Origin: Mycolicibacterium goodii
GTDB taxonomy: Bacteria > Actinomycetota > Actinomycetes > Mycobacteriales > Mycobacteriaceae
Direction of reading: 5' to 3'
DNA: 64,000 nt
NCBI RefSeq assembly: GCF_022370755.2
Contig: NZ_CP092364.2
Coordinates: 372,001-436,000 of the forward strand
Shown: positions 1,739 through 44,380 of the stretch, piece by piece
How the letters are laid out: each line of letters begins with the position of its first letter
Position numbering within the stretch: the first letter of the stretch is position 1
The notes under the pieces: model-generated
Told to the model about the DNA's origin: nothing
Databases searched by the model: none
Seen by the model: only the letters and a program-made list of their open reading frames with translations
Position numbers and translations under genes: made by a program

Positions 1739-1739
1739 G

Positions 1740-20670: not shown

Positions 20671-20676
20671 GCGCTC

Positions 20677-21066: not shown

Positions 21067-21260
21067 ACTCGTCCGCGCAAAGCGGCGCCGGTGCGGTGCG
21101 ATCCTTGGCCGTTGAGAGCCAGGAAGGTTCATTCGCATCTCGTTCGACCGCCTGGCCGTGTGACTCGCCCAGCGGTAGGAACTTTCATCGCGATCGGCGA
21201 TAGAACCCATTCGGTTTTGCCCCTTTATCCGCGGTGGCGATGCACTGCAGGCTTTACGAA

Positions 21261-21292
21261 CGTCATCGACGCTTAGCGCGGCGTCGATGACG
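21261..21292. repeat. Perfect 12-bp inverted repeat upstream of OYE operon
   Basis: Arms 21261-21272 and 21281-21292 (CGTCATCGACGC and its complement) around an 8-base loop, ending 53 bases before the old yellow enzyme ATG. It lacks a T-run, so it is more likely an operator or a leader-RNA hairpin than an intrinsic terminator. The rest of the 278-bp gap shows no gene. Confidence 0.7.
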
Positions 21293-21344
21293 CCGCGGGC
21301 CGGGAGCCGAGGTAGGCCCAAGCACAAGACGAGAAGGACCTCAC

Positions 21345-22433
21345 ATGAGCACCGTGTTCGACCCAGTGACAGTTGGCGGACTGACCCTCAAGAACCGAAT
21401 CGTGATGTCGCCGATGACGCGAAGCCGCGCGTACGCACCCGGCGCGGTGCCGACGCCCAGCATGGCCACCTACTACGGGCAGCGGGCCAGTGCCGGACTG
21501 ATCATCACCGAGGGCACCCAACCGTCGGTGGTCGGTCAGGGCTACCCGAATACTCCTGGTCTGCACTCGGACGATCAAGTAGCCGCATGGAAACTGGTCA
21601 CCGACGCCGTGCACACCGGAGGCGGTGTCATCTTCGCCCAGCTGATGCACACCGGCCGCATCGGCCATCCGAGTCTGCTCCCCGCAGGCATGACTCCCGT
21701 TGGGCCGTCGCCGGTGGCTCCGACCGGTGAGGCGCTCACCCCCGACGGCCACAAGCCGTACCTGGTTCCCGAGACCCTGACCGAGGAGCAGATCGCCGCG
21801 ACGGCAGACGACTTCGCCACTGCGGCGCGCAACGCGCTGGCCGCGGGGTTCGACGGCGTGGAAATCCACGGGGCGAACGGTTATCTGCTGCACCAGTTCC
21901 TATCGACAAACGCCAACCTCCGCACAGATCGCTGGGGCGGTTCCATCGAGAATCGCGTCCGATTTCCGCTGTTGGTCATCGGCGCAGTGGCGGCTGCGGT
22001 CGGTGCCGCCCGGGTGGGATTGCGCCTATCACCGAACAACCCGCTCAACGACATCCGAGAAGACGACTACCACGCAACCTACCGTGCCCTCGTCGACGAC
22101 CTGGCCGGAAAGGGCCTGGCATATCTGCACATCATGGAGGTAGGCGACCGCGCGTTCACCAAAGACCTGCGCGCACGGTTCGGAGGAACCCTCATTCTCA
22201 ATCCGGCGACACCTGGCGGAGTCACCGGCCTGAACGAACTGGCTCTCGTCGAAGACGGCACAGCAGATCTGCTCGCGTTCGGCGCCATGTTTCTCGCCAA
22301 CCCCGACCTGCCGCGCAGGCTCGCGTGGGGCGGCCCGTTCAACACTCCTGATCGCGCCACCTTCTACGGCGGTGACGACCACGGATACACCGACTATCCG
22401 CGGCTCGATTCGACGGGCAGCCTGACGAAGTGA
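21345..22433 (+). CDS. Old yellow enzyme family alkene reductase
   Basis: A 362-residue FMN-dependent (beta/alpha)8 ene-reductase of the NemA/OPR type, reducing activated C=C bonds or nitro groups with NAD(P)H. Key regions: NRIVMSPMTRSRA (FMN contact), ITEGTQPSVVGQGY, FAQLMHTGRIGHP, DGVEIHGANGYLLHQFLSTNANLRTDRWGG (active-site His and Asn pair and FMN phosphate loop) and LLAFGAMFLANPDLPRRL. It is the first gene of an operon: the next start codon overlaps its stop (GTGA). The upstream 12-bp inverted repeat is the likely control site. Neighbours encode redox and stress functions. Confidence 0.9.
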   Translation: MSTVFDPVTVGGLTLKNRIVMSPMTRSRAYAPGAVPTPSMATYYGQRASAGLIITEGTQPSVVGQGYPNTPGLHSDDQVAAWKLVTDAVHTGGGVIFAQLMHTGRIGHPSLLPAGMTPVGPSPVAPTGEALTPDGHKPYLVPETLTEEQIAATADDFATAARNALAAGFDGVEIHGANGYLLHQFLSTNANLRTDRWGGSIENRVRFPLLVIGAVAAAVGAARVGLRLSPNNPLNDIREDDYHATYRALVDDLAGKGLAYLHIMEVGDRAFTKDLRARFGGTLILNPATPGGVTGLNELALVEDGTADLLAFGAMFLANPDLPRRLAWGGPFNTPDRATFYGGDDHGYTDYPRLDSTGSLTK

Positions 22434-23821
22434 ACACCATCGCCGCCGATCTACTGGTCATCGGATTCGGAAAGGGCGGCAAAACCCTGGCTGCGGACAT
22501 GGGCCGACGAGGACAGCGAGTCGTTCTCGTGGAGGAGTCGGCACACATGTACGGCGGCACCTGCATCAACACCGGATGCGTACCCACGAAGTCGATGGTG
22601 TACCGCGGTGAGCATTCGCCGACTGGCTCGGACGGAGTGGCCGCCTACACCCAGGCGGTAGCCGCCACAGAGCAGCTGACCTCAGGTCTTCGAGCGGCGA
22701 ATCTGGCCTCGCTGGAACCCATTCCGACGGTGCAGGTGTTGACCGGTCGTGCGAGTTTCATCGACGCGACTTCGGTGGCGGTCGAGACCGATGAAGGGGC
22801 CGCCACCGTGACTGCCGACAGCATCGTCATCGGAACAGGCTCGATTCCGGTGACGCCGGACATACCCGGTGTGAGTGACACCCCGGTGGTGATGACCAGC
22901 ACGGAGCTGTTGAGGCGCGCGTCGCGCCCTACTCGACTCGTGATACTCGGCGGCGGATACATCGGTTTGGAGTTCGCGTCGATGTACGCCGCCTACGGCA
23001 CCTCGGTCACCGTGCTGGAACAGCGTCCGACGATACTTGGTCACGAGGATCGCGACGTTGCCGACGCGGTTCGCGTGGTGTTGCGGGACAAGGGTGTCGA
23101 GATTGTCACAGCCGCGGAAGTGACTGGAGTGCAGACGATCCTGTGCGGCGGCGGTCCACCGAGGGCGCGGGTGCGATACCGGGTGGGCGGACGCTCGTGT
23201 GACGCCGACGCCGATGTTGTGCTCGTGGCGTTGGGGCGCAGACCCAACACCGCGCCGTTGAGGCTAGATCGGGCCGGTGTGGCGCTCACCGACTCCGGTG
23301 CGGTCGTCGTCGACGAATACCGGCGAACCAGCCGGCCGCACATCTTCGCTGTCGGAGATGTCAACGGTGGACCGCAGTTCACCTATATCTCGTTGGATGA
23401 CTACCGCATCGTGCTCGACCAGCTCACCGGTGCACCTGCGCCACGGTCAGCCTTGCAACGGCAAGCGGTGCCGAGTTGCCTGTTCCTCAGCCCACCCCTC
23501 GCGCGTGCCGGCCTCACCGAATCGCAGGCCCGCACTGCCGGCCATGACATCCGGGTGGCCACCAGCCCCGTGGCTGATCTGGCCACGGTGGCCAGGGCCC
23601 GCATCGTCGATGACACATCCGGAATGATGAAGGTCGTTGTGGATGCCGCCGACGACAGAATTCTGGGTGCAGCGTTGCTGTGTCACGATGCTCAGGAAGT
23701 GATCAATATCGTCACCTTGGCGATGCGCCACGGCATCCCCGCTACCCAACTGCGCGATGCGATCTACACCCACCCATCCATGTCGGAGTGCTTCAACCAG
23801 CTGTTAGGACTTCTGAAGTGA
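22430..23821 (+). CDS. rclA: RclA-like flavoprotein disulfide reductase
   Basis: A 463-residue pyridine-nucleotide disulfide oxidoreductase. FAD loop at the N-terminus (VIGFGKGGKT), redox pair Cys45/Cys50 in YGGTCINTGC, NAD(P)H-binding LVILGGGYIGLEFASMYA, and a C-terminal interface with THPSMSE. The combination FTYISLDDYRIV and the last 130 residues match E. coli RclA, a reactive-chlorine-inducible Cu(II) reductase, rather than dihydrolipoamide dehydrogenase; the usual active-site His-Glu at the C-terminus is replaced by HPSMSE as in RclA. GTG start overlaps the previous stop, and its own stop overlaps the next GTG. Confidence 0.85.
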   Translation: MNTIAADLLVIGFGKGGKTLAADMGRRGQRVVLVEESAHMYGGTCINTGCVPTKSMVYRGEHSPTGSDGVAAYTQAVAATEQLTSGLRAANLASLEPIPTVQVLTGRASFIDATSVAVETDEGAATVTADSIVIGTGSIPVTPDIPGVSDTPVVMTSTELLRRASRPTRLVILGGGYIGLEFASMYAAYGTSVTVLEQRPTILGHEDRDVADAVRVVLRDKGVEIVTAAEVTGVQTILCGGGPPRARVRYRVGGRSCDADADVVLVALGRRPNTAPLRLDRAGVALTDSGAVVVDEYRRTSRPHIFAVGDVNGGPQFTYISLDDYRIVLDQLTGAPAPRSALQRQAVPSCLFLSPPLARAGLTESQARTAGHDIRVATSPVADLATVARARIVDDTSGMMKVVVDAADDRILGAALLCHDAQEVINIVTLAMRHGIPATQLRDAIYTHPSMSECFNQLLGLLK

Positions 23822-24507
23822 GATTCGATCCCGGGGATACCGCAGTGGTGGTCATCGATCCACAGATCGACGTCTTGAGTCCCGATGGCCGCAACTGGGC
23901 CGCCGTCGGGGCCAGCGTCACCGAGAACGACACGGTGAAACACATCGCCCAACTCATGGGAACCGCGGTAATAGGCGGCTACCCGCTCGTGATATCACCT
24001 CACTACTTCTACCCGTCCGATTCGCAGTGGTTGTTCAACGGGCCGCTCGAATCCGACGAGTTCGCCACAGGTACGTTCGCCCGTGCAGGCGCACTCGACC
24101 TGAGCGGTTTCGCGGGCTCAGGAGCGGACTGGCTGTCGGATTTCGAAACCTACATCAACCACGCCGGCACTACAGTTGTCAGTCCGCACAAGGTTTTCGG
24201 GCCGCAAACCAACGACTTGGTCCTACAGTTGCGCAAACGTCGGTGCAACCGCGTCATCCTTGCCGGGATGCTCGCCAACATGTGCGTCGAGTCTCATCTG
24301 CGTCACCTCCTCGAGGAGGGCTTCGAAGTAGCCGTCGCTGTCGATGCCGTGGCCGGACCCCGGCACCCTGTCTGGGGCGACGGTTACCAGGCGGCGGTGG
24401 TCAACTACCGATTCCTGGCCCATGCCGTCCTACGGACCGCAGACATCCTCGACGCCATGAAGCCCGCCAGTGCTTCCCCCACAAAGGCCTCGACGCCGAA
24501 CTACTGA
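23818..24507 (+). CDS. Isochorismatase-like cysteine hydrolase
   Basis: A 229-residue hydrolase with the Asp-Lys-Cys triad of the family: Asp14 in VVIDPQID, Lys125 in SPHKVFG, Cys156 in NMCVES. The GTG start at 23818 overlaps the rclA stop; the frame is open further upstream inside rclA but shows no family match there. Family members hydrolyse amides such as nicotinamide, N-carbamoylsarcosine or oxamate-like compounds, or isochorismate. PNC-type metal ligands are not obvious, so nicotinamidase activity is unlikely. Its stop overlaps the start of the sensor-like gene by one base. Confidence 0.82.
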   Translation: MRFDPGDTAVVVIDPQIDVLSPDGRNWAAVGASVTENDTVKHIAQLMGTAVIGGYPLVISPHYFYPSDSQWLFNGPLESDEFATGTFARAGALDLSGFAGSGADWLSDFETYINHAGTTVVSPHKVFGPQTNDLVLQLRKRRCNRVILAGMLANMCVESHLRHLLEEGFEVAVAVDAVAGPRHPVWGDGYQAAVVNYRFLAHAVLRTADILDAMKPASASPTKASTPNY

Positions 24508-25538
24508 TGTCTCGAAAAGATATGCGCACCAAGGAGATGTCATCGAACGAGGGACCGACCGAAGACGCGCTTCGCCGCCTGGCGAGCCTGTTGGCCGAGA
24601 AGACACCCTCCCACGAGATCTTCACAGCTGTGGTGGTAGAGGTGTTGCGCTTGGCCGAAGTCGATACCGCGCAATTGTTCCGGCTGGATGGTGACGGATC
24701 GTCCATCCTGCTGGCCGATGCCGCGCACGCCGGTGACTGCGCGGGTGCTCCCGGCGCTGAGCAGTGCTACGTCATCACGATTCCGCTTCGCATCGAGGGC
24801 GCGATCTGGGGAAGTATCGTGCTCGGCAGCAGTGGCGGCAGCGTTCCACACGGACTCGAGCGGCGGATGACGGACTTCGCCGAACTGCTCCTGCCCGCCA
24901 TCGCCACGGCAGACGCCAGGACACAACTAGCGGCGGTGCGGACTCGGCTGATCACCGCGTCGGACGACTTCCGCCGTGACATCGAGCTGAGGGTGCGAAC
25001 CGGAGCGCAACAACGCATTGTGAACCTGGCACTGGGCCTTCGGGGCACGACAGACAATTCGATCGATCGTGCAAGCGCACCGATGATCCTCGAGCAACTC
25101 GAGTGGCTGTATGACGAGTTGCAGGACATCGGGCGGACGGTCCACCCCCGGGCGTTGTCGATAGGCGGGTTACGCAGTGCGCTGTCGACGCTCGCGCGGT
25201 GTTCCGCCGTTCCGGTGAACCTTCAGGTCTGTGTGGGCGGCAGACTGCCTGACTCAGTCGAGACAGCCGTTTACCGTGTTGTCGCCGAGATGCTCTCGTA
25301 CACCCGCGACGACGCTCGCGCGTCTCTGATCGAGGTCGCTGTCGAGATCGACGGCCGGGTGCTCCGGGTGCGAATCTACGGCGACGGGGTCGGCGGTGTT
25401 CGGGTGGGCGGCGAACCCGGTCTTCTTCAACTGCAAGATCGAGTCAAGGCTCTAGGTGGCGAATTCGACGTGGTCAACCCGGTCGGTGGCGGCACCATGG
25501 TGAGATGCGATCTGCCTCTGGGCGGCGGCCGCCTTTGA
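24507..25538 (+). CDS. GAF-containing sensor-kinase-like protein, degenerate
   Basis: A 343-residue cytosolic protein with no membrane span. GAF-like domain about 20-130, then a DHp-like helix (about 152-215) and an HATPase (about 245-340). The DHp motif ends TGAQQR as in HisKA_3 kinases, but Arg164 and Thr165 stand where the phospho-accepting His-Asp normally are. The N-box reads EMLSY (261-265), with Tyr265 in place of the metal-binding Asn. The G1 Asp (GDGVGG, ~293) remains. So it can hardly be an ordinary histidine kinase; no response regulator gene is nearby. TGATG overlap couples it to the cysteine hydrolase gene. Confidence 0.8.
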   Translation: MSRKDMRTKEMSSNEGPTEDALRRLASLLAEKTPSHEIFTAVVVEVLRLAEVDTAQLFRLDGDGSSILLADAAHAGDCAGAPGAEQCYVITIPLRIEGAIWGSIVLGSSGGSVPHGLERRMTDFAELLLPAIATADARTQLAAVRTRLITASDDFRRDIELRVRTGAQQRIVNLALGLRGTTDNSIDRASAPMILEQLEWLYDELQDIGRTVHPRALSIGGLRSALSTLARCSAVPVNLQVCVGGRLPDSVETAVYRVVAEMLSYTRDDARASLIEVAVEIDGRVLRVRIYGDGVGGVRVGGEPGLLQLQDRVKALGGEFDVVNPVGGGTMVRCDLPLGGGRL

Positions 25539-25564
25539 CGCCGGCAGGGAGCAGAAGTGGCAAC

Positions 25565-26038
25565 ATGCTCGCAGCGCGGCCGTTTGGTGTGACCACAGCG
25601 TCTCCGTTCACCGTGGACACTGCCCTGTCGAAGGTGCAAGTCATCGAGGACGCGTTCAATACGTGCGACCCGTACCGGATCAGCATGGCTTGTACGCCGA
25701 CGTGTCTGTGGCGCAACAAAACCGTCGACATGGTCGGTCGCGGCGAAATCGTTGAATTCCTCACCGCCAAGCGTTATCGCGAGATCGACTTCGCACTGCG
25801 CATGGCTCTGTGGTCAGTGCGGGGAAACCGGATTGCTGTTCATGTGCAGTGTGAGTACGGTGACGCGGCGGGCCGGTTGTGGCGCGGCTACGGAGTCGAG
25901 ATGTGGGAGTTCTCCGACGATGGCCTCATCAGCCGGCGTGAAGCGTGCATTAACGAAGTTGTGGTCGAAGAATGCCAACGGCGCATCTATGGACGGCGCT
26001 CCGCCGCCGACCGGGGTGCTGACCTGCCTCTCGACTGA
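25565..26038 (+). CDS. DUF1348 (NTF2-fold) protein, divergent copy
   Basis: A 157-residue NTF2-like fold protein, recognisable as DUF1348 through KVQVIEDAFNTCDP, LWRNK, RGEIVEFLTAKR, GNRIAVHVQCEYGDAAGRLWR and the C-terminal VEECQRRIYGRRSAADR. It is a diverged paralogue of the protein encoded at 29322-29789. ATG at 25565 lies 26 bases after the pseudokinase stop; an in-frame start at 25505 inside the previous gene is possible. As the last gene of the operon, it may bind a small hydrophobic ligand, but no function of DUF1348 is established. Confidence 0.8.
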   Translation: MLAARPFGVTTASPFTVDTALSKVQVIEDAFNTCDPYRISMACTPTCLWRNKTVDMVGRGEIVEFLTAKRYREIDFALRMALWSVRGNRIAVHVQCEYGDAAGRLWRGYGVEMWEFSDDGLISRREACINEVVVEECQRRIYGRRSAADRGADLPLD

Positions 26039-26049
26039 AACCGGTGCAC

Positions 26050-27060
26050 TCACTCGAAATCCGCGACTGGTTGCGTGCGGACGAGAATGTTGCCCTTGAC
26101 CTTTCGGCTTTCAAGCGCTTCATGTGCCTCGACTATCCGGTCAAGGGGAGCGGTGAGCCCGATTCTCGGTCGGTAGCCGCGTGCGGCCAGCCACGCAGTG
26201 ACGTCCTCGACGGCTGCCCGTTTCGCAGGCGCCGGTACTGTGTACACCAACACGAAGCGAAACGCGGCGCCCGCCCGCATGGCACGGAATACAGGCACGG
26301 AAGCGAGGTCGTCGACACCGTCCACCGCATAGGTGCTGATGACTCCGCCCGGAGCGAGGCTGGCGAGATCGGTGTCGAGGTTGGACAGCAGGTCCACCTC
26401 GACGATCCGATCGACACCTGCACCTGCAGTCGCTGCCTTGATGACCGCTGCAACGTCGTTTTCGAGCATGTTGATGACGACGTCGGCGCCTGCGTCACCC
26501 GCCGCGTCGATGTCCGCTCGATCACGCACCGTCGTCGCCACCCATGCCCCGGCCCACTTGGCGAGCATTATCGCGGCGCGGCCGACCACTCCGGCCCCAC
26601 CGTGAACCAGCACCCGAAGTCCGCGAACATCGCCGTCTGCGAACAGGCAACGGTGGGCTGTCAGCGCCGGAATGCCCACGCTCGCACCGGTCTCGAACGA
26701 AACACCGGCAGGTAACGGCACGGCGCGTTCGGCGGGTACGGCGACGAACTCGGCGGCGGTGCCGGAAGGACTTCCGGACTGGGCTTCGTAAACCCACACG
26801 CGCTCACCGATCCGGTCGGCTTCGACATCCTCTCCGACTTCATCGACAACACCGGCACCATCTTGGTGGGGGATCACCCGGCCGTACTGCATCGACGCAT
26901 GAAAGCCGGTGCGCGACTTGATATCAGAGGGGTTGAGCCCCGACACTGCGAGGCGGACCCGAACCTCGCCGCGGCCGGGATGCGGTGGTGGAACTTCGCC
27001 GACGACGAGGACGTCTGCCGCCGGTCCTTGTTGCTCGTAGAACGCCGCTCTCATGCTCAT
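26050..27060 (-). CDS. Zinc-less MDR oxidoreductase, quinone reductase type
   Basis: A 336-residue medium-chain dehydrogenase/reductase of the zeta-crystallin/quinone oxidoreductase branch. The Zn ligand pattern GHE and the structural Cys cluster are absent. N-terminal GroES-like domain with SGLNPSDIKSRTG and PHQDGAGVVDEVG; Rossmann domain with VLVHGGAGVVGRAAIMLAKWAGAWV, a typical NADPH loop. ATG 27060 (or 27054) is chosen; the frame continues to 27360 without a ribosome site. It is convergent with the DUF1348 gene (11-bp gap) and divergent from the TetR gene at 27405, a likely regulator. Confidence 0.85.
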   Translation of the reverse strand: MSMRAAFYEQQGPAADVLVVGEVPPPHPGRGEVRVRLAVSGLNPSDIKSRTGFHASMQYGRVIPHQDGAGVVDEVGEDVEADRIGERVWVYEAQSGSPSGTAAEFVAVPAERAVPLPAGVSFETGASVGIPALTAHRCLFADGDVRGLRVLVHGGAGVVGRAAIMLAKWAGAWVATTVRDRADIDAAGDAGADVVINMLENDVAAVIKAATAGAGVDRIVEVDLLSNLDTDLASLAPGGVISTYAVDGVDDLASVPVFRAMRAGAAFRFVLVYTVPAPAKRAAVEDVTAWLAARGYRPRIGLTAPLDRIVEAHEALESRKVKGNILVRTQPVADFE

Positions 27061-27404: not shown

Positions 27405-28061
27405 ATGAGCCAGCGGCGTCGTCGACGCACTCAACAGGAGCGCGTCGATGAGTCCTCGAGACGATTGATTGCGGCGGCCATCGAACTCTTCGCGAAGAAT
27501 GGCTATAACGAGACGACGGCCAAAGAGATCAGCCTGACGGCAGGGTACAGCCGCGCGATGCTGTCCGAGCGCTTCGGGAGCAAGAGGGTCATCCTCGAGG
27601 CCATCATGTCGGAGTACGAGAGTCGCTCGGCAGGCGATCTGGGGGCACACCCATCCGGATTCGACAGGGTGATGGCCTCGGTCAACGGCGTGTGCCGCGT
27701 GGCGCTCGAAGATCCTGGATTCACCAGAGCGGTGTCGGTGATGAGTTTTGGAGCCGTGCATGACGAAGGTGATCTGCGAGACCGGATTCGCCAGTGGTTG
27801 TTCGGCATGCGTCAGACTCTGTGTGATGCTCTCCGGGCCGGAGTCTCCGATGGTTCCATCGACAGTGCCGTGGACCCCGACGGTGTAGCGCTGAAAATCA
27901 TGATGGCATGGGCAGGTTTCGACTTCTACTGGATCGTGTTGCCTGAGTTCGTGGATTATGTCGCGGGAGTGCACGAGTGGCGGCAGCGGATCATCGACAC
28001 ACTGCGGCCGGATGTGGACTCCGGAGCGCGCATTGAGTCGCCTGCTGTCGAACGCGATTGA
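27405..28061 (+). CDS. TetR-family regulator, copy A
   Basis: A 218-residue repressor with an N-terminal helix-turn-helix domain (about 15-60; NETTAKEISLTAGYSRAMLSERFGSKRVILEAI). The C-terminal ligand domain includes DRVMASVNGVCRVAL and DLRDRIRQWLFGMR. It is a clear paralogue of the TetR encoded at 31420-32034: both share the SRAM(L/V)(S/A)ERFG recognition helix and the DGS(I/V)..SVDPDG block. Divergent from the MDR gene, it may repress that gene or the old yellow enzyme operon. A hairpin terminator directly follows its stop. Confidence 0.88.
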   Translation: MSQRRRRRTQQERVDESSRRLIAAAIELFAKNGYNETTAKEISLTAGYSRAMLSERFGSKRVILEAIMSEYESRSAGDLGAHPSGFDRVMASVNGVCRVALEDPGFTRAVSVMSFGAVHDEGDLRDRIRQWLFGMRQTLCDALRAGVSDGSIDSAVDPDGVALKIMMAWAGFDFYWIVLPEFVDYVAGVHEWRQRIIDTLRPDVDSGARIESPAVERD

Positions 28062-28081: not shown

Positions 28082-28254
28082 GCCGGGCAACCACGGAAGT
28101 TCGTAAATGGAAGTGTCTTGGCCAGGAGGCAGCGGATTCAGCGACGGCAGCCAATGACGACAGGCGCGACCATCCAATCGGCGGAGGCGATGAGTGTAAT
28201 CGTTGGTGACGATGGAAAGCCGCCATGAGCATCGCAGGCTCCTACCATGGGCCC

Positions 28255-29196
28255 GTGGAGATACGTCAGCTTGAAGCGTTCGTGGCTGTTGCCACGAAGC
28301 TGCATTTCGGGCGGGCGGCAGAGGCGCTGCACATGGGTCAGCCCACGCTCAGTGACATGATTCGGCGTCTGGAGCGTGAGATGGGTACGCCGCTCCTACG
28401 GCGGACCACCCGCCGCGTGACGCTCACGAGTGCGGGATCTGAGTTGCTGGAACGCGCAAAGCGCATTCTTGACGAGATCGCCGCAGCGGGCGTTGCGGTG
28501 CAACGAGTGGGGCGCGGCGACGCCGGCACCATCCGGTTGGGCATCACACCGCTGGCGGCGCCGATACTCGCACCCCATCTGGTTCAGGAGTTCCGCGCTC
28601 GGGCGCCCGATGTCGAGGTCGAAATCCGGCGTATGTGGTTGTTCCACCTGGAACAGGCGCTGGCCGAGGGCGAGGTCGACGTGGCGGTCACGTGCGGGAT
28701 CGTGCCCGACCCTCCCAACGGCGTCAGCGAGGTGATCTGCGGCGAACCGTTGCTGGTGAGTATCCGTGCAGATCACCCACTGGCCGAACGCGATTCCGTG
28801 ACGTTGACGGATCTGGCCGAACAGACACTCGGCATCCAGAGCGAGGCGTTGTTCCCCGCGTGGGTCCTCGCTCAACGTCAGGCGCTGGAAACTGCGTGCA
28901 TTTCGCCGCGAACCGTCGAACTCGCTGACAATCACGTCGCGGCGGCCACCTGGCCTAGCCAACCGGAGATCGACTGGATTCTGACGACACGTTCGATAGT
29001 GCAACCGGAGATGGCAGCGGTGGTCCGTCCCGTGACTTTTCCGCGGCTGGTTCCGTACACACTGCAATGGCGCCCGGAACGAACTCCGAGCGCCGCGGTG
29101 ACCCGGTTCGTCGGTATGACACGTGAGGCAATACCGCCGGGCTGGTCCAAGGTCCGTGATCCGGAGCCTCATCGGATTGATCGGGATCGGCGGTGA
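28255..29196 (+). CDS. LysR-family regulator, copy A
   Basis: A 313-residue LysR regulator: winged helix (about 1-60, VEIRQLEAFVAVA, HMGQPTLSDMIRRLEREMG) and a substrate-binding domain with TIRLGITPLAAPILAPHLV. GTG 28255 gives the family-standard N-terminus; ATG 28225, with GGAAAG upstream, is an alternative. It shares more than half its residues with the LysR encoded at 32216-33151, including the unusual ELFPxWVLAQ region. The effector would bind in the ~residue 90-290 domain. It lies between TetR copy A and the second DUF1348 gene, all on the same strand. Confidence 0.87.
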   Translation: MEIRQLEAFVAVATKLHFGRAAEALHMGQPTLSDMIRRLEREMGTPLLRRTTRRVTLTSAGSELLERAKRILDEIAAAGVAVQRVGRGDAGTIRLGITPLAAPILAPHLVQEFRARAPDVEVEIRRMWLFHLEQALAEGEVDVAVTCGIVPDPPNGVSEVICGEPLLVSIRADHPLAERDSVTLTDLAEQTLGIQSEALFPAWVLAQRQALETACISPRTVELADNHVAAATWPSQPEIDWILTTRSIVQPEMAAVVRPVTFPRLVPYTLQWRPERTPSAAVTRFVGMTREAIPPGWSKVRDPEPHRIDRDRR

Positions 29197-29321
29197 GATC
29201 TATGCGCCGTTCCCGCTTTATCTCGTGTCGGACCACAGGCAACCTGTGAGGGCGAGGTGGCGCGACACCCTCCGCCTCGCAGGAACAAGTGACCCAACAT
29301 CTATGCGGAGGCGTTTATCTG

Positions 29322-29789
29322 ATGACATCCGACGAGGTGCGCGTCCCGCTGCCGCCATTCGACCTGCAGTCCGCGTTGCAGAAGGTCCAGGGCGCCGAAG
29401 ACGCGTGGAACACCTGCGATCCCGTTAGGGTGAGCAAGGCCTATACGCGGGACAGCCTGTGGCGCAACCGCAACATTTTCGTCACCGGTCGTGACGAAAT
29501 CGTCGAGTTTCTGGAGGAAAAATGGGAACGCGAGCTTGACTACTCGCTACGCAAGAGCCTCTGGGACTTTCACGGGAATCGTATCGCGGTGCGGTTTCAG
29601 TACGAGTGTCGGGACGCGGCCGGACAGTGGTGGCGCAGTTACGGAAATGAGCTATGGGAGTTTGCCGACAACGGCCTGATGCGCCGACGCGAGGCAAGTA
29701 TCAATGACCTCCCCATCGACGAATCTGAGCGCCGCTACTTCGGTTCTCGGTCGGAGGCCGAACGCAGCCATGACATCCCGCTGCGCTGA
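29322..29789 (+). CDS. DUF1348 (NTF2-fold) protein, canonical copy
   Basis: A 155-residue NTF2-fold protein matching the DUF1348 pattern closely: [49 protein letters not shown] and [23 protein letters not shown] 29322 has GGAGG 9 bases upstream. It is the orthodox member; the copy at 25565 has drifted. Family function is unknown (ligand binding or enzymatic). Located just after LysR copy A and before the broken deformylase. Confidence 0.85.
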
Positions 29790-29873: not shown

Positions 29874-30418
29874 ATGACGGTCCGGCCGATCCCGGTGTGG
29901 GAGACCCGATCCTGCATATCCCGACCAATCTATACCGATGGATGACCGGCTGGAATTCACCGAGACGAGACGACGCCTCATCGCCGACATGAAGGACACC
30001 CTGAGAGGGTCTGGTGGCGTCGGGCTCTCGGCCAACCAGATCGGCTCAACGGACCGGATATTCGTTTACGACTGTCCAGAGTCCGCGTCTTGAGCGGCGT
30101 AGCGGTGTCGTCATCAATCCGGTGCTGGAACAGCACCACATTCCAGACTGCCCACCGGATGACACCGGCGACATCGAGGGTTGTCTGTCCGTGCCCGGTT
30201 TGATGTTCCCCGTACCACGTGCAGAGTGGGCTCGGGTGCGTGGTTTCGACGTCCACGGACAGCCGATCGTGATCGAAGGAACCGGGCTGTTCGCCCGGAT
30301 GCTTCAACACGAAGTGGCTTATCTTGATGGGCGGTTGTACGTCGACCAACTTGTCGAGCCCGAGATGCGTTGTGCGACGTGGACGCCGGGAGTGGACCGG
30401 CACCCGTTCAGATTGTGA
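29874..30418 (+). pseudogene. Peptide deformylase gene with frameshifts
   Basis: A remnant of a peptide deformylase gene. It starts as MTVRPIPV (29874, with AAGGGAG upstream), then a one-base loss near 29897 shifts the frame to [11 protein letters not shown] second shift puts [17 protein letters not shown] and VGLSANQIG in another frame (from 29938, stop 30091). A third restores [21 protein letters not shown] and QHEVAYLDG through 30418. The catalytic QHExxH is HEVAY here: the second metal-binding His is Tyr. Three shifts plus a lost ligand argue that this is dead; the functional copy must lie elsewhere. Confidence 0.85.
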
Positions 30419-30556: not shown

Positions 30557-31423
30557 ATGTCTGTCTTCGGCACGCGTCATCGCACCGTATCCATCGATGG
30601 TCTTGACGTGTTCTACCGGGAGGCCGGTGACCCGTCAAGGCCGACGTTGTTGTTGCTGCACGGCTTTCCGTCAAGTTCGCACATGTTCCGCGACCTGATT
30701 CCCGCGCTGGCTGACGACTATCACCTCGTCGCACCCGACCACATCGGTTTCGGGCAGTCGGCGATGCCGTCGGTGAACCAGTTCACCTACAGCTTCGACC
30801 GCCTTACCGAGATCACCTCGAAGTTGATCGATCGTCTTGGCCTGGAACGGTTCGCCATCTATATCCATGACTACGGTGCACCAATCGGCTTGCGCATCGC
30901 CAGCGCCCACCCAGAGCGCATCACCGCCATCATCACTCAGAGCGGCAATGCCTACATGGAGGGTTTCACGGCGTTCTGGGACCGGCTGTTCGCCCATGCC
31001 AAGGACCGCGCTGCCAATGAAGACTCCGTGCGGGAGTATTTCACCGCCGAAACCACCAAATGGCAATACACACACGGGGTTCCTGCCGACCGACTCGACC
31101 GCATCGCCCCTGAGGCGTGGATGCTCGACCAGGCCGGACTGGACCGGAAGGGCAACGACGCGATCCAGTTGCAGTTGTTCTGGGACTACCAGTTCAACCT
31201 CGACGGATACCCGAAGTTCCAGGAGTACTTTCGCACCTACCGCCCGCCCCTTTTGGTCACCTGGGGCCGTAACGACGAGATCTTCGGTGCGGCGGGCGCC
31301 GAGGCATTCCGCAAGGATCTTCCGGATGGCGAGTACCACCTGCTCGATGCCGGTCACTTCGCATTGGAGACTCACGGTGAGGAGATCAGCGGCTACATCC
31401 GCGACTTCCTGGGCCGGCTCTAA
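30557..31423 (+). CDS. Alpha/beta hydrolase with Asp nucleophile
   Basis: A 288-residue alpha/beta hydrolase of the epoxide hydrolase / haloalkane dehalogenase group. Oxyanion motif LLLLHGFPSSSH, nucleophile elbow YIHDYGAPIG with Asp instead of Ser, cap domain about 140-210, and the final catalytic His in DAGHFALE. The acid Asp/Glu follows GRNDEIF. These fit a hydrolase that forms an alkyl-enzyme ester. Its last 4 bases overlap the end of the convergent TetR copy B. Confidence 0.87.
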   Translation: MSVFGTRHRTVSIDGLDVFYREAGDPSRPTLLLLHGFPSSSHMFRDLIPALADDYHLVAPDHIGFGQSAMPSVNQFTYSFDRLTEITSKLIDRLGLERFAIYIHDYGAPIGLRIASAHPERITAIITQSGNAYMEGFTAFWDRLFAHAKDRAANEDSVREYFTAETTKWQYTHGVPADRLDRIAPEAWMLDQAGLDRKGNDAIQLQLFWDYQFNLDGYPKFQEYFRTYRPPLLVTWGRNDEIFGAAGAEAFRKDLPDGEYHLLDAGHFALETHGEEISGYIRDFLGRL

Positions 31424-32034
31424 GAGAAAGGACGAAGTACCTCCTGGACCCAGTCGCGCCAGCGCAGAACGGTCGAAGGAAGGTCGATCTGCTCCGGCAT
31501 CATGATGGACCAGTAGGCATAGCCGATGCCGGCCGTCAGAGCTTCCCGGCTGAGTCCATCCGGGTCGACACTACCCGTCACCGAGCCGTCACTCAGCCCG
31601 ATTTCGATACCATCTCGGATCACGGCGCGTAATCGGTTGAGCCACTGCCGGATACGATCACGCAGCTCGCCATTGTCGTGCATTGCCTCGAAGCTGACGA
31701 TGAACATCGCCCGTGCGAACATCGGGTCGTCGTTGATCAGGCGACAGAGCCCGTTGACCGGTGTGAGCGCTCTGTCGAAGCCGCTGGACTGCTCGCCTGC
31801 GTCAACGGTGACCCGGCTCTCATAGTCATCGAGCAGGGCTTCGAGCAGGGCATCCTTGCCGCCGAACCGTTCAGCGACCATCGCGCGGCTGTAACCCGCA
31901 CGCAGTCCGATGTCCTTGGCGGTCGTTTTTACATAGCCCTTCTCGTTGATCAGCTCGACGGCCGCCGCGGCGAGACGTCGCGCCGATTCGTCCGCCCGGT
32001 CACGCTGTGTCCGCCGCTGCACAGGACCGGTCAT
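31420..32034 (-). CDS. TetR-family regulator, copy B
   Basis: A 204-residue TetR repressor, paralogue of copy A (27405). Helix-turn-helix about 15-60 (KTTAKDIGLRAGYSRAMVAERFGGKDALLEALL); C-terminal domain with SGFDRALTPVNGLCRLI and ELRDRIRQWLNRLR. ATG 32034 is preferred over an extension to 32130. It is convergent with the hydrolase gene and divergent from LysR copy B, so the 181-bp gap probably holds its operator; an inverted repeat there fits. Confidence 0.87.
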   Translation of the reverse strand: MTGPVQRRTQRDRADESARRLAAAAVELINEKGYVKTTAKDIGLRAGYSRAMVAERFGGKDALLEALLDDYESRVTVDAGEQSSGFDRALTPVNGLCRLINDDPMFARAMFIVSFEAMHDNGELRDRIRQWLNRLRAVIRDGIEIGLSDGSVTGSVDPDGLSREALTAGIGYAYWSIMMPEQIDLPSTVLRWRDWVQEVLRPFS

Positions 32035-32178
32035 CGGAGGTTTTCTCGTGCCTCGCAGTTGCGGCTGTCCCGTTCGCCCGCTCGTCGATCCACCCTCATG
32101 GCGCGATGGTCCCCTCTCGAGAGTTCTCACTTCACGCTGATCTGGCGCGGATCATACGCGCCCGAGGATTGGTCAAAT

Positions 32179-32206
32179 ATTGCTTGCTTGTGTACAGGCA
32201 AGTAAT
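32179..32206. promoter_or_regulatory. Inverted repeat upstream of LysR copy B
   Basis: ATTGCTTGC (32179-32187) and GCAAGTAAT (32198-32206) form 9-bp arms with one mismatch around a 10-base spacer. It ends 10 bases before the LysR copy B start, in the gap shared with TetR copy B. A TetR or LysR operator is likely. Confidence 0.5.
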
Positions 32207-32215
32207 ATCGACGCC

Positions 32216-33151
32216 GTGGAGCTCCGCCAACTCGAAGCGTTCGTCGCAGTAGCCTCCGAGTTGCACTTCGGGCGTGCCGCAGAGAAGCTCCACATGGGCC
32301 AGCCCACCCTGAGTGACCTGGTGCGTCGACTAGAGCGCGAGATGGGCACGCCCCTGCTCACGCGTACCACCCGACGGGTCGCGCTGACGAGCGCCGGGGC
32401 AGAATTCCAGCAGCGCGCAAACACCATCTTGGCTGAGGTCGCCGCTGCCGCCGCCGTCGTGAAGCAGTGGGCAGACGGCGATGTCGGCACCGTTCGCCTG
32501 GGCATAACACCCCCGGTGGCACCCGCCCTGCCCGGGCACCTGGCCGCCGTGATGCGCCACGAAGCACCCGGGGTCGATCTTGTCATGCGGCGAATGTGGT
32601 TGAACGACTTGTGCTCTGCGCTCCTCGACGGTCAGGTGGACGTCGCGATGACCTGCGGCCCGGTACCGGCCCAACTGGGTGTGGTCAGCGAAGTGTTATG
32701 CGGGGAACCGCTGTTCGTGGGCTTGAGAGCGGGTCACCGACTCGCCGCGAAGGACGAGGTGGACCTCCTCGACCTCGCCGACGCGACGCTCGGCATGCAC
32801 AGTGACGCGTTGTTCCCGACGTGGGTTCTCGCGCAGAAACGCGTGCTGCGTCTCGCGGGTGTGCGCCCACCCGTTGCCGAACTTGCCGACACCGACTTTT
32901 CGGCATTGAAGTGGTTGACCCAGTCGAATGTGGACTGGATCCTGACGACGACATCCGCGGCTACACCCGGCATCTCAGCGGCTATCCGGCCGGTGACGCC
33001 CCAGCACACCGCGGAGACGATGCTGCATTGGCTACCCAGCCGTGAACCGGATGTGGCAGTGCGACGGTTCGTGCGGATGGCGCTGTCGGCAAACATGCCG
33101 CCTGGCTTTGTTCGTCGGAAGGGTACGCCGAGGTGTTTGAAGGCTTCCTAA
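32216..33151 (+). CDS. LysR-family regulator, copy B
   Basis: A 311-residue LysR regulator, paralogue of copy A at 28255. The winged helix reads VELRQLEAFVAVASELHFGRAAEKLHMGQPTLSDLVRRLEREMG, followed by a ligand-binding domain (VRLGITPPVAPALPGH, LFPTWVLAQKR). GTG 32216 gives the standard start; a TTG at 32180 would run through the inverted repeat. No structural gene directly follows, so its targets are elsewhere, perhaps the hydrolase or the old yellow enzyme operon. Confidence 0.87.
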   Translation: MELRQLEAFVAVASELHFGRAAEKLHMGQPTLSDLVRRLEREMGTPLLTRTTRRVALTSAGAEFQQRANTILAEVAAAAAVVKQWADGDVGTVRLGITPPVAPALPGHLAAVMRHEAPGVDLVMRRMWLNDLCSALLDGQVDVAMTCGPVPAQLGVVSEVLCGEPLFVGLRAGHRLAAKDEVDLLDLADATLGMHSDALFPTWVLAQKRVLRLAGVRPPVAELADTDFSALKWLTQSNVDWILTTTSAATPGISAAIRPVTPQHTAETMLHWLPSREPDVAVRRFVRMALSANMPPGFVRRKGTPRCLKAS

Positions 33152-33207: not shown

Positions 33208-33783
33208 ATGCGTCGGCCATACCATCACGGGGATCTGAAAGAAGCAGTTCTTTCCGCCGCGATGGCCAAGATCGAGAGCGATGGTGTGGCGGCGCTGTCG
33301 CTCCGAGACCTCGCACGCGAGTGCGGCGTAAGCCCTTCGGCGCCGCAGAAGCACTTCGCGACCAAGCAGGACCTACTGCTGGCACTCGCGCTACGGGGCT
33401 ACGCCGATCTTGGCGATGTGGTGGCAGGCCTGAAACTCGAGCTACCCGTCGAGAGTGCGTTGATGGCTCTCGGCAAAGCCTACTGCTCCTATGTCGCCGA
33501 GCATCCCGTTCTGATCCAGCTGATGTACGCGCCTCCTTCCGAAGGTGGCGTCGAGCCTCGGGAAGAGGCATTCAGGCGGGCGTTTCGTCCCTTGGAGGAG
33601 GTCCTTGACCTCGCCCGCGAACGCGGCGATATCGTGAAGAGCCGCAAGCTCGTCGACACATTCGTTCACGTAGTCCTGCGCGGGCTTGGCACCTCGGTTT
33701 CGAGCGGGTTCTTCGGTATGCCGGACGACGCGATATCCAGGAGTGTCGTTCGCCTGATGCTCACTGGCCTGCAGCCCCGTTGA
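33208..33783 (+). CDS. TetR-family regulator, WHG type
   Basis: A 191-residue regulator with helix-turn-helix (about 8-55, LSLRDLARECGVSPSAPQKHF) starting from the typical RRPYHHGDLKEAVL, and a WHG-type C-terminal domain (YCSYVAEHPVLIQLMYAPP). ATG 33208. Unrelated in detail to copies A and B. Its final 23 bases overlap the end of the convergent sigma-factor gene. Confidence 0.85.
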   Translation: MRRPYHHGDLKEAVLSAAMAKIESDGVAALSLRDLARECGVSPSAPQKHFATKQDLLLALALRGYADLGDVVAGLKLELPVESALMALGKAYCSYVAEHPVLIQLMYAPPSEGGVEPREEAFRRAFRPLEEVLDLARERGDIVKSRKLVDTFVHVVLRGLGTSVSSGFFGMPDDAISRSVVRLMLTGLQPR

Positions 33784-34372
33784 GACCCGGTGTCTTGTCC
33801 CTGGTTGGCCGGCATGCCAGTTGGGCACGTACCCGACGCCGCGCCCGGTGGAGGCGGGACATGACCGTGCCCACGGGAACCTCCATCAAGCTGGCCACTT
33901 CGCGAAGCGGATAGCCTTCGACGTCGACGTAGTAAAGAATCAGGCGGCTGTCGCGTGACAAGGCGCACATTGCCGTGACAAGGTCGCTGCGGGGAAGTGC
34001 TGCCAGAACGTCATCCTCGGCTGATGCATGAAGAACCGTGGTTTGCGTGGACCCGCTCGCCAGCAGCATTCGACTGCTGATGTCGTCAGCGAGGACTTCT
34101 GACGGTCGAGACGCTTGCCGTCGATGATTGCTTATCCACTGATTGCGCATGATGCGTCGCAACCATGCCTTTAAATTCGTTCCCGGGCGGAATCGATGGA
34201 ATCCCGAGTATGCGTGCAGCAGTGTGTCCTGCACCAAGTCCTCTGCGTCGGCGTGGGTGCGTGTGAGCCGTTTGGCGTCTCGGAGAAGTAGCTCGACGAG
34301 CGGGAAGACTTCACACGCGAAAACGGATGCCCCCGTGGATCCGCTCGAGCGGTCGGCCTCCAAATCAGCCAT
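33761..34372 (-). CDS. ECF sigma factor, SigH/SigR-like
   Basis: A 203-residue sigma-70 family factor. Region 2 (about 20-90): AEDLVQDTLLHAYSGFHRFRPGTNLKAWLRRIMRNQWISNHRR, matching SigH/SigR of actinobacteria. Region 4 (about 130-185): YYVDVEGYPLREVASLMEVPVGTVMSRLHRARRRV. Normal partners of this group are zinc-binding anti-sigma (RshA/RsrA-like) genes, but none is found next to it; the SDR gene 127 bp upstream is not one. ATG 34372 (GTG 34381 possible). Controls an unknown regulon, perhaps disulfide or heat stress. Confidence 0.85.
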   Translation of the reverse strand: MADLEADRSSGSTGASVFACEVFPLVELLLRDAKRLTRTHADAEDLVQDTLLHAYSGFHRFRPGTNLKAWLRRIMRNQWISNHRRQASRPSEVLADDISSRMLLASGSTQTTVLHASAEDDVLAALPRSDLVTAMCALSRDSRLILYYVDVEGYPLREVASLMEVPVGTVMSRLHRARRRVRAQLACRPTRDKTPGLNGAAGQ

Positions 34373-34499
34373 GAGCCACACGCAGTGGGAGGGGTCGGGC
34401 AGCCTTGGTCGTGAGCATGCCCTGATGGCGTGGGGACGGTCGTGGACGGTGTTTCGTCATGGTGGGTCGGTGCTTTCTCTTCTGGGTGATGTCGCGCAG

Positions 34500-35339
34500 C
34501 TACTCCACGAGGAATCCCGCGTCGACCGGCAGCGAGATACCGGTGACATACCTGCCGGACGCACCGCAGAGGTACAACATCGCCTCGGTGACGTCGCTGC
34601 TGTCGATCATGTCGACGCCGGGAAGCGCGTTACCGACCGCTGCGCCTACTTCGGGATAGGAATTCCAATAACGCTCAACGGCTCCATCAGTCACCATGGG
34701 GGTTGCCACACCTGTTGGCAGGACCGCGTTCACCCGGATGTTCTTCTCCGCGAGCGTGCGGGCGTAGTAGTGCATCAGGCCGATGAGACCGCTTTTGGCG
34801 GCCGTGTATCCCGCGGCTCCGTGGTTCATCGTGCGGAAGGACGGACTCAGTACCGATCGTTCGGCGATCGCCGAACTGGTGATCACGACTGCCCCACCAC
34901 CCCCGTGCTTCAGAAGAAATGGCAGCGTTGCTTCGATTGTGAAGTAGACACCTTTGAGGAGTACGTCGACGGCATCGTCAAACGCTGCCACGGTCGGGTT
35001 GTGGTCGCCGATTCCCGGCAGGATGCCCGCGTTGGCCATGACGAAGTCAATACGCCCGAGTTGGTCGACTGCGCGCTCGACCACAGAGCTGAGTGCGGAA
35101 ATGTCACGAACATCGACCTCGTCTGCGACCACACGGCGGCCGGCGTTCTCGACCAGCCGCGCCGTCTCTTCGAGATCGTGTGGACGGGCCATCGGATACA
35201 TCACGGTGTCGATCTGCCTGCAGATGTCGACAGCGATGATGTCAGCGCCCTCCTCGGCAAAGCGAACGGCGTGGGAGCGGCCCTGCCCACGGGCGGCGCC
35301 GGTGACGAGTGCAACATGCCCTTCAAACCGTTTCGTCAA
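34500..35339 (-). CDS. Mycofactocin-type SDR oxidoreductase
   Basis: A 279-residue short-chain dehydrogenase. NAD-binding loop VTGAARGQGRSHAVRFAEEGADIIAVDIC, catalytic YxxxK in GYTAAKSGL (Tyr-Lys), upstream Ser in VVITSSAIA and NAG in MANAGILPG. The insert QIDTVMYPMARPHDLEETARLVE is the hallmark of mycofactocin-dependent SDRs, which keep a non-exchangeable NAD. No mycofactocin genes (mftA-F) are in view. ATG 35339 is divergent from the cupin gene across a gap containing a 35-bp palindrome. Confidence 0.88.
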   Translation of the reverse strand: MTKRFEGHVALVTGAARGQGRSHAVRFAEEGADIIAVDICRQIDTVMYPMARPHDLEETARLVENAGRRVVADEVDVRDISALSSVVERAVDQLGRIDFVMANAGILPGIGDHNPTVAAFDDAVDVLLKGVYFTIEATLPFLLKHGGGGAVVITSSAIAERSVLSPSFRTMNHGAAGYTAAKSGLIGLMHYYARTLAEKNIRVNAVLPTGVATPMVTDGAVERYWNSYPEVGAAVGNALPGVDMIDSSDVTEAMLYLCGASGRYVTGISLPVDAGFLVE

Positions 35340-36105: not shown

Positions 36106-36972
36106 GTGTTGGTGAGCATTCGACAAGTGACCAAGGCCGACGCGCGTGTCTGTGGCCGTATCTGCTTCGACGCATTCGCCGCGATAGCTCGGCAGCACGG
36201 GTTCCCGCGCGACTTTCAAACGGAAGCACTGTCCACCGGTTTGCTTGCACAACTGATCGAGCATCCACGGTTCTTCGGCGTGGTGGCCGAGGTCGACGGC
36301 CAGGTGGTCGGCAGCAATTTCCTGGACGAGCGAACCACCATCGGATCGGTCGGACCAGTGAGTGTTGCTCCGTGGATCCAAGACCGCGGAATCGGGAATG
36401 TCCTGATGCGAGCCGTGCTGGATCGTGCGGTGATCAAGAGACTCTCGGGAATTCGGTTGATGCAGGCGGCATATCACAGCCGATCCCTGAGTTTGTATAC
36501 CAAGCTCGGATTCGTCACTCGTGATTCGTACGCGGTGATGCAAGGCGTGGCGCCACTTCGGCAGGGGTCCGCGCCGGCGGTGCCGGTCGTTCGTCCCGCC
36601 CTCCCGTCCGATCTGTCGGCGTGCAACTCACTTTGCCGTGATGTCTACGGTTTTGACAGGCTCGAGGAAATCCGCGACGCGATCGGATCGAATGTAGCGC
36701 GTGTTGTCGTGAGAGACGGCCGGATCAGCGCCTATACGACTGGGATCGGCCTTTTCGGTCATTCGGCGGCCGAGGACGACGAAGTCCTGCGTGTGCTGAT
36801 CCTGACCTCGGACCAGATCGGCGGGACCGGCTTCCTACTGCCGACCCGAAACGACCGATTGCTGCGACAATGCCTCAGAGAGGGCTTCCGAATCGTGTCA
36901 CTGATGAACATGATGACCATCGGCGAATATCGCCAGCTTCAGGGATCATTCCTGCCGTCAGTGGGGTTCTGA
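36106..36972 (+). CDS. Tandem GNAT acetyltransferase
   Basis: A 288-residue protein with two GNAT modules. Module 1 (about 5-145) has the acetyl-CoA loop QDRGIGNVLM and the LYTKLGF end. Module 2 (about 160-280) starts VVRPALPSDLSACN and is less conserved, lacking a clear acyl-CoA loop. GTG 36106 has GGGAGGA 10 bases upstream; an ATG at 36058 is an alternative. Only 73 bases follow the cupin stop, so they may be co-transcribed. Substrate unknown. Its end overlaps the convergent SnoaL-like gene by 34 bases. Confidence 0.8.
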   Translation: MLVSIRQVTKADARVCGRICFDAFAAIARQHGFPRDFQTEALSTGLLAQLIEHPRFFGVVAEVDGQVVGSNFLDERTTIGSVGPVSVAPWIQDRGIGNVLMRAVLDRAVIKRLSGIRLMQAAYHSRSLSLYTKLGFVTRDSYAVMQGVAPLRQGSAPAVPVVRPALPSDLSACNSLCRDVYGFDRLEEIRDAIGSNVARVVVRDGRISAYTTGIGLFGHSAAEDDEVLRVLILTSDQIGGTGFLLPTRNDRLLRQCLREGFRIVSLMNMMTIGEYRQLQGSFLPSVGF

Positions 36973-38270: not shown

Positions 38271-38637
38271 CGGTTCACCTGCCCGTTCGCCGTGGAAATA
38301 ACCCTGTCGGCTGGATCTGCGGAGCCCGACTCCACGAAGTATATGTACGACAGGCTTTACAAGACAGAATGTTTGGTGTCCAAAACAGGATGAGTCGGAT
38401 CGGTTTGGTCGATCAATGACCCGTGGTGTTGGCGTCGCCACCAAACACCTTCACCCAGGCTAGGGAGGTGGACAACCTACGGCCGAACCGATGCCGTTGC
38501 CTCGCTACAACCTCCTTCCCAAGGAAGGGATCCACCGCATCCACACGGGCGCTCGGTTGTGCCCGCCTCCGCGATGAAACCGTCTGTCCAGGTGGGCTTC
38601 CCGGGCCGCCGTGGCCGGGGGAGAGGGCCTGATCGGC
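38271..38637. other. 367-bp intergenic region
   Basis: Between the methyltransferase start and the end of the PucR gene, both on the minus strand. It holds an imperfect dyad TGTTTGG-TGT-CCAAAACA (38370-38387) that may be an operator for the methyltransferase. I see no credible gene: the short open frames on either strand have poor codon use and no family match. Confidence 0.4.
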
Positions 38638-44375: not shown

Positions 44376-44380
44376 GGTTA

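Follow-up and report, generated by a model that had tools for sequence, protein, structure and literature searches.

The DNA studied here is a 64,000-nt stretch (hereafter the window) of Mycolicibacterium goodii contig NZ_CP092364.2 (GCF_022370755.2, positions 372,001 to 436,000, forward strand). We found that five of its genes, encoding an old yellow enzyme (OYE), an RclA-like flavoprotein reductase, a cysteine hydrolase, a kinase-like protein and a DUF1348 protein, form an operon-like unit, and that this unit is a mosaic of modules recurring separately elsewhere. The enzymes are members of families already known; the most original part of the finding is a natural clade of kinase relatives, the window protein among them, in which the phosphorylated histidine is replaced. 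We consider the chances about even that the unit would act as a mosaic defence, carried in an imported stretch, in which several enzymes counter toxins of the quinone, electrophile or oxidant type.

All five open reading frames (ORFs) are on the plus strand. The junctions read GTGA between the OYE and RclA-like genes, GTGA between the RclA-like and hydrolase genes, and TGATG between the hydrolase and kinase-like genes, and 26 bases precede the DUF1348 start. Coordinates and junction sequences agree with the overlapped five-gene run described in an earlier reading of this DNA (the initial annotation). The DUF1348 frame contains an alternative upstream ATG at 25505, so the fifth gene may overlap the kinase-like gene too. 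Gene overlaps by themselves are ordinary operon anatomy, and from this layout we infer that the five genes are probably read as a single transcript.

Reductase, hydrolase and DUF1348 genes

The first gene (21345..22433) encodes a NemA-like protein of the ene-reductase family, which matched PF00724 at 255.5 bits (cut-off 27). Against the NCBIfam NemA model NF007899 it scored 328, under the cut-off of 403, and judged by these scores it is an old yellow enzyme and not NemA proper. Ene-reductase 1, GTN reductase and NEM reductase are its solved relatives.

The second gene (22430..23821) encodes a flavoprotein disulfide reductase (Pyr_redox_2, 189 bits). Its top PDB match was 6kgy (393 bits, phmmer E 1.2e-116), which we take to be E. 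coli RclA. The cysteines are at positions 45, 50, 239, 257, 350, 418 and 454; C45 and C50 form a CXXXXC pair, and there is no adjacent or near-C-terminal pair. In PMC7527725, RclA is delimited by E < 1e-90, stated for BLAST, and by a CXXXXC pair without further MerA-type cysteine pairs. The window protein falls on the RclA side in both respects, with the E value to 6kgy obtained by phmmer. The label RclA-like of the initial annotation is kept on the strength of this likeness; against the curated NCBIfam RclA model NF040477 the protein scored 504.6, under the cut-off of 740, so we regard a reactive-chlorine function as presumptive.

The third gene (23818..24507) encodes an isochorismatase-family cysteine hydrolase (PF00857, 65.9 bits, cut-off 27) with the Asp-Lys-Cys triad D14/K125/C156. 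In an alignment of the window protein with the best 120 of 500 reported matches, the triad was present as D in 121 of 121 proteins, K in 120 and C in 121. Four NCBIfam hydrolase models matched, none above its own cut-off. The fifth gene (25565..26038) encodes an NTF2-fold DUF1348 protein, here DUF1348a (PF07080, 136.9 bits, cut-off 22.1), with a structural match to 2imj.

A clade of kinase relatives without the phospho-histidine

Alignment and an AlphaFold model identify the product of the fourth gene (24507..25538) as a putative GAF/HisKA_3-type pseudo-histidine kinase. It had no Pfam match at E 0.001, and its scores for HATPase_c (15.9, cut-off 26.4) and GAF (14.4, cut-off 22.4) were sub-threshold. 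Where the phospho-histidine is expected, the window protein carries R164, and T165, Y265 and G292 stand in place of an Asp, the N-box Asn and an Asp, respectively. The H-box His was found in 48 of the 52 aligned relatives, with Arg in the remaining four, and the N-box Asn in 50 of the 52.

Only 5 of the 53 aligned proteins are without the phospho-histidine, and all five carry Arg: the window protein, a copy encoded at 3.89 Mb in the host genome, and three from other public assemblies. They make up one side of a split with an ultrafast bootstrap (UFBoot) value of 100 after columns 164-165 were removed. As read from the alignment, catalytic residues have been lost to different degrees across this clade. 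Both the 3.89-Mb copy and P0004 retain the N-box Asn and DDGVGG, P0003 retains the N-box Asn and the Asp, and P0002 and the window protein are without both. The three proteins from other assemblies came from a search of 5.8 billion proteins, in which 7995 best-word candidates were scored. Two of them are closer to the window protein than the 3.89-Mb copy is, at 88% and 72% identity; the third is 45% identical to the window protein and 81% to the 3.89-Mb copy. The claim of a phosphorelay-dead kinase relative stands, as predicted from R164. The accompanying claim that it senses a ligand is doubtful because 31+6 columns of the GAF region, occupied in 70% or more of the 48 relatives that have the His, are missing from the window protein and from the two proteins closest to it.

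The AlphaFold model (mean pLDDT 85, pTM 0.60) predicts a short GAF-like portion, a long helix, and DHp-like and CA-like portions. Histidine kinases, among them DesK and VraS, matched it in the PDB, in line with a DHp-CA fold. The template modeling (TM) score to the VraS CA domain was 0.75 by target length; by query length it was 0.26-0.38 among the 50 matches listed, and the domain arrangement is thus tentative. The host genome encodes twelve further proteins that match the kinase-like one; of the four inspected, three keep the His and one is the His-less copy. One other match in the genus, in genome G287, keeps the His. On plasmids we obtained 68 records, all below 60% identity and none with 80% coverage.

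A precedent comes from Corynebacterium glutamicum, a species of the same order as the host. Its ChrS pseudokinase is likewise a kinase relative without catalysis and, according to PMC9491836, forms heterodimers with a kinase; it arose through laboratory evolution by a CA-domain frameshift, whereas the window protein belongs to a natural His-less clade. Following this precedent, heterodimerization is our first idea for the kinase-like protein, and a link to an extracytoplasmic function (ECF) sigma factor the second. An ECF sigma gene lies about 8 kb from the kinase-like gene in the window and 2.3 kb from its relative in a second region of the host genome. The protein would not autophosphorylate on the usual His and would most likely team up with a related, intact kinase in the cell, biasing its output. 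We tentatively propose, as possible rather than probable, that pseudo-histidine kinases with a GAF domain, in which Arg has taken the place of His and the ATP site was lost step by step, form a natural clade of mobile detoxification regions, adjoining DUF1348 genes and a few kb from ECF sigma genes. They would signal without phosphate transfer, either by heterodimerizing with intact kinases or as a HATPase-fold partner of the sigma factor, and so couple regulation to the reductases of their own operon.

An operon-like unit of separately recurring modules

The initial annotation asked whether other actinobacteria share the five-gene order, and held that no known pathway contains such a unit. 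We searched from the hydrolase, RclA-like, kinase-like and OYE genes and did not find the full order elsewhere in the genomes searched. The initial annotation had named a lack of conservation elsewhere as an outcome that would refute its proposal, and for the full order this is the outcome obtained. The genomes were a sample of a bigger set, and scoring was confined to the top few candidates in each (mostly 4-7), so the absence of the order is no proof. The full set is unique among these genomes; pairs and triplets drawn from it recur, and on the absence of a known pathway the initial annotation is half right.

We examined 79 hydrolase loci, from the best 80 of 149 confirmed, together with 19 RclA-like loci; flanks of 5 kb on both sides were available for 60 of the 79 and 16 of the 19. 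Within 5 kb of the hydrolase we found RclA in 9 loci, a relative of the alpha/beta hydrolase (ABH) encoded further downstream in the window in 15, a relative of the window's first LysR regulator (LysR1) in 5, a relative of its second DUF1348 protein (DUF1348b) in 2 and a kinase-like match of 29% in a single locus; no locus had OYE or DUF1348a. The nine RclA neighbours include one that is only 29% identical, one in pieces and one on the opposite strand. Around the RclA-like genes, the hydrolase was within 5 kb in 2 of the 19 loci and OYE in 0, and another of the 19 (L171) has a 30-residue hydrolase piece under the score limit.

Taken singly, the genes differ in their spread. The hydrolase occurs at 81-83% identity in 6 genomes besides its own among 297 of the genus. 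RclA-like genes at E<=1e-150 are present in 55 of 396 genus genomes, OYE at E<=1e-140 in 4 and the kinase-like gene at E<=1e-55 in 2, the host's own included each time; in the class, the kinase-like gene was found in 1 of 296 genomes, its own.

The clearest module is the RclA-hydrolase pair. Seven distinct other mycobacterial genomes (L026, L028, L029, L030, L031, L137 and L140) have the same 4-nt overlap between the two genes, with 76-78% identity to the window for RclA and 82-83% for the hydrolase. Where the window has OYE, all seven have a member of one gene cluster, again with a 4-nt overlap into RclA; in L029, from Mycolicibacterium parafortuitum, Pfam identifies it as an alpha/beta hydrolase. 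This triplet (77% for RclA-like, 83% for the hydrolase) differs from the window in beginning with the alpha/beta hydrolase instead of OYE and in having neither a kinase-like gene nor a DUF1348 gene after it. By eye, a zinc-type dehydrogenase, an AAA/LuxR-type gene and an HxlR-type gene lie near triplets of this kind. The two genes are apart in L027, L032 has RclA pieces only, and in a Nonomuraea locus (L078) a 52% RclA relative lies 392 bp before the hydrolase. Another RclA-like gene (70%) lies at 1.45 Mb in the host genome.

Other parts of the operon recur in a cluster of about 16 kb in Mycolicibacterium sp. J2 (L211). It contains LysR1, DUF1348b and a MarR gene divergent from OYE, followed by genes for a short-chain dehydrogenase (SDR), SnoaL, a quinone oxidoreductase-like protein (QOR), a luciferase-like monooxygenase, ABH, a 50% RclA relative, LysR2 and TetR2. 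The J2-type cluster thus has OYE, QOR, DUF1348b, ABH, LysR, TetR and an RclA relative in common with the window, without the overlapping OYE-RclA-hydrolase-kinase order. Parts of such a cluster are present in genomes G354 and G220; the RclA-family match in G354 is merely 31%.

The host genome itself has a second, partly similar region. At 3.91-3.93 Mb (copy2) we found LysR1 in two frames, DUF1348b, MarR, OYE, SDR, SnoaL, QOR and a monooxygenase, of which MarR, SnoaL and the monooxygenase were identified by sequence likeness by eye; RclA, LysR2 and TetR2 are missing, and ABH is at 3.86 Mb. Copy2 is 94% (OYE), 92% (DUF1348b) and 89% (QOR) identical to J2. The window's OYE is 79% identical to both copy2 and J2, as is its DUF1348b, and its QOR 57-59% to these and G354 (59% to copy2). 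Copy2 is closer to J2 than to the window, so the window genes are no recent duplicate of copy2, and a recent in-genome duplication of OYE, DUF1348b and QOR was rejected.

At 3.89 Mb lies the nearest host-genome relative of the kinase-like protein (41% over 383 aa). It is followed by a deformylase gene, an early-ending DUF1348a relative, TetR3, ECF sigma, SDR and methyltransferase-like genes, which are 55, 48, 73, 58, 81 and 57% identical to their window counterparts, respectively. A kinase-like gene near a DUF1348a relative therefore occurs twice in the host genome, in the window and at 3.89 Mb. The region as a whole (G000:C1:3863000-3938000; L195, L147, L196, L197) is rearranged. Of the 18 genes in the stretch around the window operon, 13 have relatives there, in the company of genes that look catabolic and, judged by eye, one for a transposase. 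Taken together, OYE, and the kinase-like gene with its DUF1348 gene, each recur in neighbourhoods without the RclA-hydrolase pair, and that pair recurs without them.

The hydrolase family has further associations of its own. It lies at most 300 bp from an ABH gene (53-55% to the window ABH) in L036, L050, L056, L076, L079, L084, L085, L091 and L098, a recurring pair hosted by Caballeronia, Paraburkholderia, Reyranella, Pseudonocardia and an alphaproteobacterial metagenome-assembled genome. In L141-L143, LysR is divergent from ABH-hydrolase-DUF1348, a recurring mycobacterial gene group together with L145; a PNPOx-fold gene follows in L141, L142 and L145, and a MOSC/FAD/2Fe-2S gene is present in L143 and L145.

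The surrounding 17-kb stretch and its origin

The five genes sit at the left end of a stretch of about 17 kb that was probably acquired horizontally. GC content at third codon positions (GC3) is 0.66-0.80 in 18 genes from OYE (21345) to a methyltransferase-like gene (38444), whereas on the left side (3.6-21.1 kb) 18 called genes have values of 0.82-0.94 and on the right (38.6-42.4 kb) three have 0.82-0.89. Neither this composition nor the second DUF1348 gene of the stretch was in the initial annotation.

Pfam was run on 17 of the 18 genes, LysR2 being left out. On the plus strand beyond the operon are TetR regulator 1 (27405..28061; Pfam, 50% to TetR2), LysR1 (28225..29196; Pfam, 57% to LysR2, with 67-72% relatives in J2-type clusters), DUF1348b (29289..29789; 207 bits), an N-terminally incomplete peptide-deformylase-like ORF (30014..30418; positions 69-153 of 156 of PF01327 only), ABH (30557..31423; Pfam, 85-88% to relatives in J2, G354, L142 and L143), LysR2 (32180..33151; recognized by similarity to LysR1 only), TetR regulator 3 (33208..33783; Pfam) and a GNAT acetyltransferase-like gene (36280..36972; Pfam, 55% to a copy at 3.87 Mb). 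On the minus strand are QOR (26050..27060; a PIG3-type match under the cut-off), TetR regulator 2 (31420..32130; Pfam), the ECF-type sigma factor (33761..34381; Pfam), SDR (34500..35339; Pfam) and the methyltransferase-like gene that ends the low-GC3 stretch (37428..38444; Pfam). By eye, the deformylase-like ORF is without the second His of HExxH, and the copy at 3.89 Mb is longer, with the motif present.

We regard import of the stretch as likely, and this rests more on patchy distribution and divergence than on composition. Several observations count against our overall reading. GC3 is also low in three genes at 0-3.6 kb (0.73-0.79) and four at 43.4-45.8 kb (0.76-0.79), so composition by itself is no proof of import. 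An empty site was not demonstrable, as the PucR gene of the right flank was unmatched at 1e-60 in 36 other genomes. The incomplete deformylase-like ORF indicates that part of the stretch is decaying. The seven low-GC3 genes outside the stretch span 26-3584 and 43404-45809, and one short gene at 48.2 kb has a GC3 of 0.81. A plasmid origin was considered and rejected: 19.5-44 kb had no close plasmid match, the best being 77% over 3%.

With decay in view, the kinase-like gene might be a non-functional passenger in decaying imported DNA, its frame open by chance. The stepwise loss of catalytic residues in its clade, the deformylase-like ORF, and the second region with LysR in two frames and an early-ending DUF1348a relative would fit such decay. 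However, in relatives only 88% and 72% identical the frame is still open, at 342-343 aa, and Arg still replaces His, and the pLDDT of the model is high. We hold this explanation to be quite improbable.

The gene content also bears on whether the five genes are a dedicated catabolic operon, with an unsaturated or nitro-aromatic amide as substrate, which OYE and the flavoreductase would open, the hydrolase cleave and DUF1348 isomerize, and with the kinase-like protein as regulator. The ABH and LysR1 relatives near the hydrolase, and the SDR, SnoaL, QOR and luciferase-like monooxygenase genes of J2, are what such an operon would lead one to expect. Yet no ring-cleaving enzyme or transporter was found among the genes put to Pfam, the regulators are many and of mixed kinds, and to our knowledge RclA-like enzymes are not known as catabolic. 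On balance, we consider a catabolic role unlikely.

Candidate regulatory sequences

A perfect 12-nt inverted repeat with an 8-nt spacer (21261..21292) lies 52 bp before the OYE start, as a candidate operator or transcript stem. Its sequence had a single match in the window, and 100 shuffles gave an expectation of 0. Comparable repeats, with arms of at least 11 and spacers of at most 12, were found in 2 of 5 shuffled windows, so this repeat alone proves nothing. A sigma-70 promoter scan of 20600-31500 gave 1 site, against 2.1 in shuffles.

In the J2-type clusters and copy2, a 16-bp palindrome, ACCTGTTCGAACAGGT, lies between the divergent MarR and OYE genes, with 0 mismatches in J2, 1 in G220, 2 in copy2 and 2 in G354 (sites at L211:5028-5043, L209:15933, L196:16864 and L207:16420). 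As an operator shared with the window it was rejected: it is absent upstream of the window OYE, and the two 3-mismatch matches in the window are at 4549 and 56499.

A 35-bp palindrome with 17-nt perfect arms and a 1-nt centre (35488-35522) precedes SDR, at a distance of about 150 bp from its start, and by eye the second region has a TGTATGCA-like sequence resembling it close to its TetR3 and SDR genes. It is perhaps a TetR3 operator. Elsewhere in the window, 8985-9019 holds a perfect 13-nt inverted repeat with a 9-nt spacer.

Proposed function and precedents

In the defence that we favour, OYE would reduce activated alkenes, quinones or nitro compounds, and the RclA-like flavoenzyme would reduce quinone, metal or oxidized-thiol species. 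The cysteine hydrolase would cleave an amide- or ester-like product or adduct, and the DUF1348 protein would bind or rearrange a hydrophobic, perhaps polyketide-quinone-like, substrate.

A precedent, by analogy, is the PfAR-1 strain of Pseudomonas fluorescens, which according to PMC7119367 owes allicin resistance to three islands of low GC that carry oye, sdr and tetR. The window stretch is of low GC3 with a partly paralogous second region, and it has oye, sdr, tetR and redox genes in common with these repeated islands. The gene sets are shared only in part: PfAR-1 has osmC, dsbA, trx, ahpD, 4-ot, kefF and kefC, with function demonstrated (PMC7119367), whereas the window has an RclA-like reductase, a cysteine hydrolase, DUF1348 and a pseudokinase, with a predicted function. 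For DUF1348, a Cercospora protein raised cercosporin resistance in 11 of the 27 Neurospora transformants tested (PMC4608573).

Some observations speak against a defence role. In the same source, the Cercospora mutant without the DUF1348 gene was not more sensitive and had no phenotype (PMC4608573). The neighbourhood also looks catabolic, with LysR, the luciferase-like monooxygenase of J2 and, by eye, oxygenase-like genes near the second copy. The full order was not found in the other genomes searched, and the suggested heterodimerization rests by analogy on a single precedent, ChrS.

The initial annotation suggested, as possible, an electrophile or reactive-chlorine response with a degradative branch. 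From the gene families and neighbours, the redox or electrophile part of this is plausible. A response induced by hypochlorous acid (HOCl) and signalled via the GAF protein is a narrower proposal. In E. coli, according to PMC7527725 and PMC7464077, NemA and RclA represent two separate HOCl-responsive regulons, nemRA-gloA and rclABC. The window has flavoenzymes of both types, placed in one operon-like unit. NemR is a TetR protein, according to the same sources, and three TetR genes lie nearby, for which kinship with NemR is a candidate relationship only. Against this, the reductase scores under the curated RclA cut-off, no RclB, RclC or AraC-type regulator was recognized among the stretch genes put to Pfam, the GAF portion is reduced, and the spread of RclA-like genes through the genus means that such a gene does not mark this setting in particular. 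We therefore think a dedicated chlorine response unlikely, and retain the broader toxin defence.

Implications

In the literature searched, neither the gene combination nor the His-less clade was found described, and among the literature matches listed no paper was on a mycobacterial RclA by title. RclA-type enzymes are described in PMC7527725 as almost exclusive to bacteria of epithelial surfaces; the relatives in 55 of 396 genus genomes would widen this picture if they share the function. The His-less clade, in which the loss has gone further in some members than in others, offers a tractable series for the roles of histidine kinases without histidine. If the favoured reading is true, bacteria would build redox-toxin defences by moving overlapping modules of two or three genes from region to region, and would retain as part of such a defence a kinase without its chemistry.

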